A DNA stretch of 64,000 nucleotides from Trinickia caryophylli (lineage in GTDB: Bacteria > Pseudomonadota > Gammaproteobacteria > Burkholderiales > Burkholderiaceae), in contig NZ_CP139970.1 of NCBI RefSeq assembly GCF_034424545.1, forward strand, positions 3,348,001-3,412,000, in the 5' to 3' direction. The notes under the pieces were generated by a model. That model searched no databases and was not told where the DNA came from. It saw only the letters and a list, made by a program, of their open reading frames with translations. Each line of letters starts with the position of its first letter. The first letter of the stretch is position 1. The position numbers and the translations under genes are program-made. Below, one piece after another: positions 54,178 through 56,881 of this stretch.

Positions 54178-55068
54178 ATGGCCGCATTCAAACCGCGTCG
54201 CCCGCGCACCGGCTCCTCGCCGTTGCCGCGAACGTTTCGCCGCAACAAGGCGCTCGGGGCCGAGGCCGCGAGCGCCTTGTCGCCGGCGCCCGCCGAGACG
54301 CGCCGTGCCGCGCGCCAGCAATTTCTGCGCAAGCGCGGCATCTACCTGCTGCCGAACGCGTTCACCACGGCCGCGCTCTTTTGTGGATTCTTCGCCGTGG
54401 TCCAGGCGATGAACGTCCGTTTCGAGATCGCCGCGATCGCGATTTTCGTCGCGATGGTGCTCGACGGCATGGACGGGCGCGTCGCCCGGATGACGCATAC
54501 TCAGAGCGCGTTCGGCGAGCAATTCGACAGTTTGTCCGACATGGTGTCGTTCGGCGTAGCGCCGGCGCTCGTCATGTACGAATGGATACTGAAGGACCTC
54601 GGCCGCTGGGGCTGGCTGGCCGCGTTCGTCTACTGTTCCGGTGCCGCATTGCGCCTCGCGCGGTTCAACACGAACATCGGCGTGGTCGACAAGCGTTTTT
54701 TCCAAGGATTGCCGAGTCCGGCCGCCGCCGCGCTGATCGCAGGCTTCGTCTGGCTCGCGACCGACAACCGCGTGCCGCTCAAGCTCGTCTGGTTGCCCTG
54801 GGTCGCGTTCGCGCTGACCGTCTATGCCGGCGTGACGATGGTCTCGAACGCGCCGTTTTATAGCGGCAAGGCGCTCGACGTGCGTCACCGCGTGCCGTTT
54901 GCGGCGATTCTGCTTGTCGTGGTGGCGTTCGTGCTCGTCTCGTCCGATCCGCCGTTGATGCTGTTCGGCCTTTTCGTGCTCTACGGCATGTCCGGCTACC
55001 TGTTTTGGGCTTATCTCGCACTGCGCCGGCGGGAAAACCCGGCACGGTCGGCCCAGCACGAGCATTGA
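54178..55068 (+). CDS. pssA: CDP-diacylglycerol-serine O-phosphatidyltransferase
   Basis: 296 residues. After a basic ~60-residue N-terminal extension (RPRTGSSPLPRTFRRNK), the CDP-alcohol phosphatidyltransferase motif is intact: DG-RVAR then eight residues, G, EQF, D, SLS, D (DGRVARMTHTQSAFGEQFDS...SD). About seven hydrophobic helices follow. It makes phosphatidylserine from CDP-diacylglycerol and serine at the inner membrane. AGGAGG precedes the ATG. Confidence 0.95.
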   Translation: MAAFKPRRPRTGSSPLPRTFRRNKALGAEAASALSPAPAETRRAARQQFLRKRGIYLLPNAFTTAALFCGFFAVVQAMNVRFEIAAIAIFVAMVLDGMDGRVARMTHTQSAFGEQFDSLSDMVSFGVAPALVMYEWILKDLGRWGWLAAFVYCSGAALRLARFNTNIGVVDKRFFQGLPSPAAAALIAGFVWLATDNRVPLKLVWLPWVAFALTVYAGVTMVSNAPFYSGKALDVRHRVPFAAILLVVVAFVLVSSDPPLMLFGLFVLYGMSGYLFWAYLALRRRENPARSAQHEH

Positions 55069-55105: not shown

Positions 55106-55134
55106 TTGCACGATTTCGCGAATGCCGCTATAGT
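55106..55134 (+). promoter_or_regulatory. Candidate leuA promoter
   Basis: TTGCAC (55106-55111) and TATAGT (55129-55134, five of six consensus bases) are 17 bp apart, the ideal sigma-70 spacing. Transcription would start near 55140-55142, on the ATG of the short frame at 55142. Confidence 0.65.
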
Positions 55135-55141
55135 CGGCGAC

Positions 55142-55231
55142 ATGCTGAATTTCGCATTTCCCCCCCTATTCCTGCCCGCCTGTGCGCCGCTAAGCGGCCT
55201 AGCACTAGCGTCGGCGCGCCTTGCGCGCTGA
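55142..55231 (+). CDS. Putative leucine leader peptide of leuA (29 residues)
   Basis: A short frame with 7 leucines in 29 codons: it begins MLNFAFPPLFLPACAPLSGL and ends ALASARLAR. Four of the seven Leu codons are CTA, a codon that is scarce in the neighbouring long genes by eye. The predicted transcription start falls on its ATG and there is no Shine-Dalgarno sequence, so it would be translated as a leaderless message. Slow reading of CUA under leucine shortage could steer RNA folding ahead of leuA, as in enterobacterial leuL attenuation. The frame ends 105 bp before leuA. Not proved; it may be chance. Confidence 0.6.
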   Translation: MLNFAFPPLFLPACAPLSGLALASARLAR

Positions 55232-55286
55232 TCGTCCTCGCCTCCGTCTGCCTCGTTCGCTCTTCGGCGTCGCCAGCGGTGGCGAC
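55214..55286 (+). promoter_or_regulatory. Possible leuA attenuator structures
   Basis: Two hairpins follow or overlap the end of the leader frame: GCGCGC/GCGCGC (55214-55219 with 55223-55228), which spans the last leader codons, and GTCGCCA/TGGCGAC (55269-55275 with 55280-55286), extended by GGC/GCC. CCTTTTC follows the second at ~10 bases, so its U tract is poor. A competing antiterminator pairing was not clear by eye. Confidence 0.4.
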
Positions 55287-55336
55287 AACGCCCGAATTCC
55301 CTTTTCAGACCGTGAACCGTCCCCTGGAGACCTGAG

Positions 55337-56881
55337 ATGGCAGACAAGTTGATAATTTTCGACACGACGTTGCGCGACGGCGAGCAGTCGCCCGGCGCGT
55401 CGATGACGAAAGAGGAAAAGATCCGCATCGCAAGGCAACTCGAGCGGATGCGCGTCGACGTCATCGAGGCGGGGTTCGCGGCCAGCTCGAACGGCGACTT
55501 CGATGCGATCAACGCCATCGCGTCGATCGTCAAGGACAGCACGGTCTGCTCGCTCGCTCGGGCAAACGATCGAGACATCCAGCGCGCGGCCGATGCGCTG
55601 GCCCCGGCCGAGCGCTTCCGCATTCACACCTTCATCGCCACTTCGCCGCTGCACATGGAGAAGAAGTTGCGCATGACGCCGGATCAGGTCTTCGAGCAGG
55701 CGCGCCTCGCCGTGCGCTTCGCGCGCAAGTTCACTGACGACGTCGAGTTCTCCCCCGAGGACGGCAGCCGCTCGGACATGGATTTCCTGTGCCGGGTACT
55801 CGAAGCGGTGATCGACGAGGGCGCACGGACGATCAACATCGCCGATACGGTGGGCTACGGTGTACCCGAGCTCTACGGCAGCCTCGTCAAGACGCTGCGC
55901 GAGCGCATTCCGAATTCGGACAAGGCGATCTTTTCGGTGCACTGCCATAACGACCTCGGCATGGCGGTGGCGAATTCGCTCGCGGGCGTGAAGATCGGCG
56001 GCGCGCGCCAGGTCGAATGCACCATCAACGGGCTCGGCGAGCGCGCGGGCAATACGGCCCTCGAGGAAATCGTGATGGCCGTGAAGACGCGCAAGGACTA
56101 CTTCGGGCTCGAGGTTGGCCTCGATACGACGCAAATCGTGCCCGCATCGAAGCTCGTCTCGCAGATCACGGGCTTCGTGGTGCAGCCGAACAAGGCGGTG
56201 GTGGGCGCAAACGCGTTCGCGCACGCGTCGGGCATTCACCAGGACGGCGTTCTGAAAGCGCGCGATACCTACGAGATCATGCGTGCGGAAGACGTGGGCT
56301 GGTCGGCCAACAAGATCGTGCTCGGCAAGCTCTCGGGCCGCAACGCGTTCAAGCAGCGTCTGCAGGAACTCAACGTGACGCTCGAAAGCGAGAGCGAACT
56401 CAATACGGCCTTTGCGCGCTTCAAGGAACTGGCCGATCGCAAGTCCGAGATCTTCGACGAAGACATCATCGCGATCGTCAGCGAAGAGTCGGCGGCTGCA
56501 GCGGAGCGCGAGCGTTACAAGTTCGTGTCGCTCGCGCAGCACTCGGAGACGGGCGAGCGCCCGCATGCACGCGTCGTTTTCTCGGTGGACGGCAAGGAGA
56601 CGGTTGGCGAGGCGCGCGGCAACGGCCCCGTGGATGCAACGCTCAATGCGATCGAGGGCGAAGTCGGCAGCGGCTCCGAGCTGCTGCTCTATTCGGTCAA
56701 CGCGATCACGACCGGCACGCAGGCTCAGGGCGAGGTGACCGTGCGGCTTTCGAAGAACGGGCGCATCGTGAATGGCGTCGGCACGGATCCCGATATCGTC
56801 GCCGCTTCGGCGAAGGCTTACATTTCCGCGCTCAACAAGCTCTATACCAACGTCGAGAAGGTCAATCCCCAGGCCATCTGA
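55337..56881 (+). CDS. leuA: 2-Isopropylmalate synthase
   Basis: 514 residues. The catalytic TIM barrel begins [23 protein letters not shown] and has [31 protein letters not shown] metal ligands (HCHNDLG) and [16 protein letters not shown]; the C-terminal LeuA dimer domain (~390-510) binds leucine for feedback inhibition. It joins acetyl-CoA and 2-oxoisovalerate in the first step of leucine synthesis. GGAGACCTGAG precedes the ATG. A leader peptide candidate and hairpins lie upstream; a strong terminator lies downstream. Confidence 0.97.

Follow-up and report, generated by a model that had tools for sequence, protein, structure and literature searches.

The window analysed here is a stretch of 64,000 nucleotides that we take to come from the genus Trinickia. 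Its region 55106-55336 lies between an ORF at 54178-55068, whose product we take to be phosphatidylserine-synthase-like, and the ORF at 55337-56881, which we take to be leuA; farther upstream of leuA are ORFs that are presumably ilvI-, ilvH- and ilvC-like. The leuC gene is on a separate contig and not in a leuABCD operon. An initial annotation, made from the letters alone, proposed a candidate leaderless leucine attenuator peptide in front of leuA, and the elements on which it relied (TTGCAC and TATAGT separated by 17 nt, then an ATG at 55142 that opens a 29-codon frame in which Leu is encoded 7 times, 4 times by CTA) are all confirmed in the sequence. It had also placed two hairpins between the frame and leuA; one hairpin (55255-55297, called T below) does follow the frame, but the two others that we find (55186-55198 and 55213-55228) lie inside it. 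The features are collected in Table 1.

Table 1. Features between the promoter and leuA in the window (codon places are matched to 27-codon close-kin leaders, the window leader being two codons longer)
Feature	Position	Strand	Basis
-35 hexamer TTGCAC	55106-55111	+	sequence
-10 hexamer TATAGT	55129-55134	+	sequence; 17-nt spacer from the -35; 7 nt before ATG 55142
Leader ORF, predicted leaderless, 29 codons, 7 Leu, 4 CTA	55142-55231	+	ATG 55142-55144, TGA 55229-55231; predicted transcription start is its first base
CTA control codon 9	55166-55168	+	sequence
CTA control codon 17	55190-55192	+	sequence; CTA in 32/36 27-codon close-kin leaders
CTA control codon 20	55199-55201	+	sequence; CTA at the presumed corresponding place in 34/36 27-codon leaders
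CTA control codon 22	55205-55207	+	sequence; CTA at the presumed corresponding place in 33/36 27-codon leaders
Hairpin P1, GCCGC-TAA-GCGGC, inside the ORF	55186-55198	+	folding
Hairpin P2, GGCGCGCCTTGCGCGC plus stop, at the ORF end	55213-55231	+	folding (hairpin 55213-55228); fits the order-wide end CGC-NNN-GSG-CGC-stop
Stretch following the stop, rich in pyrimidines and poor in A	55232-55254	+	composition
Extended hairpin T with near-invariant core CGCCAGCGGTGGCG (55271-55284)	55255-55297	+	core in 86/87 close kin
Interrupted U-tract TTCCCTTTT after T	55297-55305	+	conserved in kin
Probable leuA ribosome site CTGGAG	55324-55329	+	sequence
leuA, 2-isopropylmalate synthase, 514 aa	55337-56881	+	ORF and relatives
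leuA start region; GGCAGAC (55339-55345) complements GTCTGCC (55246-55252)	55337-55345	+	possible pairing, suggestive

The predicted leader peptide, MLNFAFPPLFLPACAPLSGLALASARLAR, has Leu at 7 of its 29 positions, with CTA at codons 9, 17, 20 and 22. A genome-wide count of CTA usage had been named in the initial annotation as a check on the proposal; here CTA makes up 10 of the 876 Leu codons (1.1%) across 25 ORFs of the window, which were picked by eye and are perhaps not all genes, and none of the 226 Leu codons in seven core genes. The probability of at least 4 CTA among 7 Leu codons is about 6e-7, and the Leu content of the 29-codon frame is by itself only mildly unusual (p 0.014), so the choice of codon is more striking than the richness in Leu. 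The other two frames of the leader region contain no CTA, and one of them has stops. The RNA from 55142 to 55348 (207 nt) folds better than shuffled versions of itself (z -2.34; 2 of 200 shuffles were as good).

Relatives of this leader are widespread. We gathered 258 leuA loci, which include the best 80 among the matches listed and 100 further listed places, and these gave an uneven sample of 256 distinct upstream regions. A leader was scored where TAnnnT is followed after 5-8 nt by a frame of 14-40 codons with at least 4 Leu codons and at least 2 CTA. By this test 166 of the 256 distinct upstream regions have a leader, as against none on the reverse strand and at most one of 256 in any of ten dinucleotide-shuffled sets. 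When the promoter criterion is dropped, a CTA-rich upstream frame is found in 170 loci, and in 148 of them a -10-like hexamer ends 6-7 nt ahead of the ATG. In 161 distinct leaders the leader frame has 526 CTA triplets and the other two have 8 and 31, and CTA accounts for 526 of the 1025 Leu codons; the frame richest in Leu and CTA was taken in loci offering several, which biases these frame counts and the counts by genus toward in-frame CTA, and the shuffle-controlled 166/256 is therefore the fairer figure. The initial annotation had proposed looking in relatives for a kept frame and kept Leu codons, and its proposal comes through this comparison strongly, here and in the order-level sample described below (44 of 84 upstream regions).

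Sorted by our handles for genera, and with the same frame choice in force, the leader (at least 4 Leu) is present in all loci of the window's own genus (11/11) and of g14 (3/3), g12 (22/22) and g25 (13/13), in most of those of g3 (24/25), g13 (8/9), g10 (24/29) and g21 (25/37), in 4/10 of g11, 1/6 of g8 and the single loci of g5 and g7 (1/1 each), and in none of those of g17 (0/3), g18 (0/2), g19 (0/2) and g24 (0/1). Third codon positions are the most variable within the frame in g1, g10, g12 and g21, and the single-site synonymous and non-synonymous changes number 62 and 61 in g1, 657 and 927 in g10, 239 and 140 in g12, and 632 and 918 in g21; from this mixed pattern it follows that the Leu codons and the end are held and the whole peptide is not. 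No Rfam family matched at the gathering score in the region, in the whole window or in 16 related loci; two Rfam matches that fell outside the leader are at chance level. Upstream of leuC and trpE (20 relatives' loci each) no leader clearly like that of leuA was found, and none of the 20 trpE upstream regions has a Trp-rich leader. Two weak matches among the 20 leuC loci, one of them 564 nt upstream and the other in a single genome, were taken as chance.

The promoter is backed by this conservation across relatives, not by its consensus score. A consensus promoter scan of the window listed no site here, because the -35 hexamer matches the consensus at only 3 of 6 positions. TATAGT is the -10 hexamer in 122 of 178 leader loci, and the distance from -10 to ATG is 6-7 nt in 176 of the 178 leaders (within a search window of 5-8 nt, the start sites being predicted). 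The arrangement TATAGT-n7-ATG occurs at three sites in the own genome, as many as in the control; the two sites other than that of the leader were judged by eye. Transcription in the window is predicted from this layout to start at or within 1-2 bases of ATG 55142.

Similar leaders reach far beyond the Burkholderiaceae, and some lineages within the family are without them; these losses tell against the universality of the leader. Twelve of the 37 g21 loci fail the leader test; 11 of the 12 have TATAGT within 300 nt, with the proper frame absent, and two loci named Paraburkholderia (L031 and L032) are of the same type. Of these 12 failing g21 loci, 5 have hairpin T where it normally lies (a sixth match is elsewhere), versus 24 of the 25 g21 loci with a leader. 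The Paraburkholderia-type loci L012, L031, L032, L114-L117 and L119-L125 have mostly kept the promoter and lost the frame, and in part of them T is missing or altered; this group is in effect a natural loss experiment. In five g10 loci the test fails because the start codon or the -10 is altered or the frame is shifted (judged by eye), two g8 loci have kept the frame at a 13-nt gap, and 3 of the 6 failing g11 loci (L130, L131 and L141) retain a leaderless frame poor in Leu. These last three and L035 (named Pandoraea) have kept a frame at the -10 with few Leu codons or no CTA, and the sensor may have been lost or changed in them. The strict test also misses real leaders with another -10 or spacing (L223, L258 and, with a 13-nt gap, L129/L229), and some of the loci scored as absent or broken are near misses. 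A different kind of upstream region is seen at L047, L048, L051, L055, L060, L065, L075, L087, L103 and L338, which have no leader and where the gene just upstream ends in what looks by eye like the LeuA C-terminal domain; the sequences suggest tandem leuA copies, with a leader on only some, in several loci.

What lies between leader and leuA differs by lineage. In the groups that we take to be of Cupriavidus type (g3), Ralstonia type (g25) and Polynucleobacter type (g13), an intrinsic terminator follows the leader in 23/24, 13/13 and 8/8 loci, respectively, and the same is true of 33 of 41 loci in the named set, which is largely Comamonadaceae-type. A segment of the leader, most often lying past the last CTA codons and ahead of the stop, complements the 5' arm of the terminator; the sequences differ by group, with leader/terminator-arm pairs CAGGTCGGGACGCG/CGCCCCGGCCTG, GCTTGGGGC/GCCCCAGC and ACGGGC/GCCCGT. 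This leader/terminator duplex is matched by at most 2 of 50 shuffles in only 27 of 79 loci, a count for which the shuffles are GC-rich and one locus, L171, is close kin of the window. A ribosome at the stop would cover the complementary segment and leave the terminator free to form, and a ribosome held at the CTA codons would leave the segment free. By their anatomy these lineages have ordinary attenuation with a leaderless leader. At the Cupriavidus-type loci L019, L023 and L106 the stop-codon region CGCGCTAAGG complements a downstream CCTTAGCGCG, with matching changes between L019 and L023 (seen by eye), and this pairing is a possible pause or protector hairpin.

The window's own lineage is different in its output step. 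No canonical intrinsic terminator is found between leader and leuA in the window or in any of the 11 own-genus loci; with a terminator looked for and not found there, the window leader is by membership not a classical terminator attenuator. Weak terminator matches are present at a -8 kcal cut-off in 3/21 g12, 7/24 g10 and 3/25 g21 loci, and at -10 kcal L171 is the sole match among the close kin. Hairpin T is present instead, about 40 nt after the leader stop. Its core, CGCC-W-N-CGGTGGCG, is found in 86 of 87 close kin when two mismatches are allowed, in a set that was selected by the pattern of the peptide end and so favours conserved ends. The fold of distinct T segments beats 95 of 100 shuffles in 19/19 cases in g10, 3/3 in g14, 16/23 in g21 and 6/11 in g1, but in only 1/15 in g12, and T shows little covariation (double changes at one pair) because the core hardly varies. 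The U-tract that follows, TTCC[GC]TTTT, has T at 73 and 94%, and then at 94, 76, 89 and 74%, of 62 loci (g1, g10, g14 and g21), and later positions drift. Under a relaxed terminator test T scores in 6/11 g1, 15/24 g10 and 2/3 g14 loci, as against 2/33, 0/72 and 0/9 in the corresponding shuffles; none of the 25 g21 and 21 g12 loci scores, and the window itself fails too. We also considered whether T is a repeated genome element; its core pattern has 3 sites in the own genome, which is the control count, and the idea was rejected.

Pairing of the leader end with T reaches rank 5/100 or better in 4 of 72 loci (two of them with T misplaced) and 3/60 or better in 3 of 86 loci in a second shuffle comparison, neither an excess over shuffles, and the same is true in the close kin when the leader end is compared with T's 5' arm and with the middle stretch; no antiterminator is therefore claimed in this lineage. 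A fold model in which a stalled or finished ribosome masks the RNA hardly changes T or the ribosome site and gives no clear switch. The fold of the leader's last 36 nt is beyond shuffles in only 16 of 86 close kin, and an alignment-wide RNAalifold of the 87 close kin, from ATG to leuA, gives only weak consensus pairs. The stretch from the stop to T in 86 close kin has a C/G ratio of 1.64, 0.28 YC per nt and 5.6% A; after T the C/G ratio is 2.48, and positions 55232-55322 of the window are 40.7% C and 24.2% G.

An order-level sample took in 84 of 94 leuA places (6 others were in the earlier sets and 4 were left out); its loci are not independent, since L337 comes from a genome already represented among the earlier loci and several share a genus. 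Here we required an exact TTGC 16-18 nt before TANANT, an ATG 6-10 nt after it and a frame with at least 4 Leu codons, and found this arrangement in 44 of the 84 upstream regions, in none of five shuffled sets and never on the reverse strand. The same TTGC-including test is positive in 139 of the 256 family-level and named upstream regions. CTA is present in few of the order-level leaders, most of which use CTG. Their peptides end in R-x(1,2)-R-x(0,2) in 43 of 44 cases, often as LLLR[PL][AG]R, a feature that was not used in selecting them, and 28 of the 44 are 27-28 codons long. The last codons of 28 order-level loci picked by eye are mostly CTG CTG CGC NNN G[CG]G CGC stop (CTG in 23 and 26, CGC in 26, GCG/GGG in 25 and CGC in 27 of them), and the window leader, which ends CGC CTT GCG CGC TGA, is consistent with this order-wide end. 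These third positions are kept even in upstream regions of 33-34% G+C, which argues for a constraint at the RNA level. An intrinsic terminator is absent in 39 of the 44, and the first 30 nt after their stops contain 517 C and 167 G. A CAAYTYG-like motif lies within 45 nt after the stop in 8 of the 44 leaders, where shuffles lead one to expect 0.4; the loci that have it include L339, L340, L367, L381, L386, L389 and L401.

In a class-level sample of 29 further loci, mostly of other families, 11 have a frame that lies 5-8 nt from the -10 and contains 3 or more Leu codons. The loci L306, L308, L311, L313, L315, L323, L324 and L328, from other families, have Leu-rich frames with the same -10/ATG spacing; by eye, the last codons of some of these class-level loci fold into a hairpin across the stop, and a CCTGGCGAGG motif comes after it in several. 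The order-level comparison leads us to a broader reading, for and against which we see the case as evenly balanced. The Betaproteobacteria would have an ancient, order-wide leaderless leuA leader, usually without an intrinsic terminator, in the form of TTGC, -10 and ATG at the RNA 5' end, about 27 codons ending CTG-CTG-CGC-NNN-GSG-CGC-stop, a sequence under RNA-level constraint, and then C-rich RNA. The ancestral switch would have been a leaderless attenuator working with no intrinsic terminator, the control codons would have become the rare CTA in the Burkholderiaceae, and the output modules would have been replaced independently by lineage: strong intrinsic terminators in the Cupriavidus/Ralstonia-, Polynucleobacter- and Comamonadaceae-type lineages, and hairpin T with its interrupted U-tract in the window's kin.

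For the window itself we consider it likely that the region is a leucine-responsive leuA leader, with a control peptide made from a leaderless RNA. A ribosome would load on the RNA 5' end at ATG 55142 and read the 29-codon CTA-rich frame; with charged tRNA-Leu in short supply it would pause at CTA codons 17-22, and with leucine ample it would run to the stop at 55229 and cover the end of the frame. The position of the ribosome would then determine how the RNA behind it folds, and with that whether leuA is expressed or shut off, and the wide conservation suggests that the leader turns leucine synthesis up at leucine shortage. The leucine attenuator reading of the initial annotation thus gains support from conservation and from the terminators and complementary segments of sister lineages; its further claim, that ribosome pausing controls leuA, stands as regards the conserved leader but finds no textbook terminator or antiterminator in this lineage. 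Most likely the window leader works like a classical attenuator, and for the output step in this lineage we lean slightly toward premature termination at T, unaided or helped by Rho. The idea that the frame is a product of chance, or of a DNA or RNA palindrome (a CTAG-rich hairpin) that mimics coding, does note that CTA codons lie inside predicted hairpins in the own genus, but it is hardly credible in the face of a 526/8/31 frame bias across unlike leaders and of 0-1 positives per shuffled set of 256.

Other ways of coupling the leader to leuA deserve more weight. Rho-dependent attenuation, in which Rho would load on the C-rich, G-poor RNA downstream of the leader stop and leader translation would set whether it catches RNA polymerase ahead of leuA, is possible though rather doubtful. 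It fits the excess of C over G after the stop in the 44 order-level leaders and the lack of an intrinsic terminator in 39 of them, and also the C/G ratios before and after T in the close kin and the C-rich 55232-55322 of the window. About 3% of window stretches, however, have C-over-G bubbles as large (C-G of 12-13 in 78 nt), so that they are no rarity; the site would stay open with a ribosome stalled upstream too, unless folding hid it, and no such folding was found; and when a ribosome sits at the stop the modelled post-stop stretch is on average less open (0.32 vs 0.38) instead of more. Translational attenuation, in which leader translation would alter access to the leuA start, seems unlikely, as does translational control of leuA in this lineage generally. 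The GTCTGCC of the post-stop stretch could form seven perfect pairs with GGCAGAC in leuA codons 1-3, and complements are found in many close kin despite differing leuA starts (ATGGCAGAC, ATGACAGAC, ATGGCAGCAGAC), with 18 of the 69 loci ranking 5/100 or better; the median rank is nevertheless 22/100, several g21 loci have no complement, GGCTGAC and TCCGAC/GCCGAC starts are unmatched, and the terminator lineages presumably control transcription. Still less probable is a regulatory nascent peptide whose end, LLLR[PL][AG]R-stop, would arrest or pace the ribosome with or without leucine as ligand. The R-x(1,2)-R-x(0,2) ends of 43 of 44 order-level leaders, the 27-28 codon length of 28 of them and their use of mostly CTG rather than CTA speak for it, but the third positions kept at 33-34% G+C point to a constraint on the RNA, and Comamonadaceae-type leaders end quite differently while keeping their Leu runs. 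An additional role in trans for the peptide or the short RNA left by termination, as reported for rnTrpL/peTrpL of Sinorhizobium, we think very improbable; the leaderless layout is the same and the available part of one report gives a precedent (PMC7298713), but the peptide here drifts outside the Leu and end positions.

If a leucine-responsive leader translated from a leaderless RNA is indeed what these loci carry, control of leucine synthesis in many Betaproteobacteria would start with a ribosome on a bare 5' end, and leaderless translation would set a core pathway in this group. The lineages would form a natural series, with a single sensor (Leu codons and a fixed end) coupled to varied output modules, so that the evolution of attenuators becomes testable. 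The analysis also points to a small conserved gene, one that the annotation of many genomes may lack, and the leader may account for leuA upstream regions that have no visible terminator. Leaderless mRNAs have been reported in Burkholderia cenocepacia and Cupriavidus metallidurans (PMC4603805, PMC7563307), and the main texts of these two papers were found to make no mention of leuA or of leader peptides. The initial annotation knew of no description for the Burkholderiaceae, and we agree in that full-text searches of open papers yielded no description of a leaderless leuA leader for Betaproteobacteria, although the surveys of Vitreschak 2004 and Lopatovskaya 2010 may predict one. On the sequence comparisons above, the window leader is one of a conserved family of apparently leaderless leuA leaders, and no description of this family was found.

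The leuL/leuABCD attenuator is the textbook enterobacterial system. As described in the available part of one account (PMC6123439), enterobacterial leuL resembles the leader studied here in having a Leu-containing leader peptide just before leuA, and its terminator and competing segment are shared by the window's relatives; the window differs from it in its predicted leaderless start and in having no canonical terminator, no Rfam match and no leuABCD operon. Closer in layout is leuL of Streptomyces lividans, which the accessible portion of its report describes as leaderless, as predicted for the window leader, and as lacking a typical Rho-independent terminator (PMC8079986). Leu leader peptides are described in other Actinobacteria as well (PMC1262725, PMC5784534), and as far as the available parts of these three papers go they share with the window a Leu-run peptide upstream of leuA; they differ in that phylum and peptide are unrelated and in that no CTA bias is mentioned there, and the actinobacterial LEU element is presented as a pseudoknot in which the Leu run is paired to the leuA ribosome site. 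The mycobacterial polycysteine leaderless attenuators, going by the title of the report alone, likewise have a leaderless short ORF of cognate codons, though for cysteine. Among proteobacteria the nearest parallel is trpL of Sinorhizobium meliloti, whose leader-peptide RNA begins with ATG, as predicted here; in the part of that work available (PMC7298713) it differs from the window leader in responding to tryptophan, in belonging to the alphaproteobacteria and in having a terminator.
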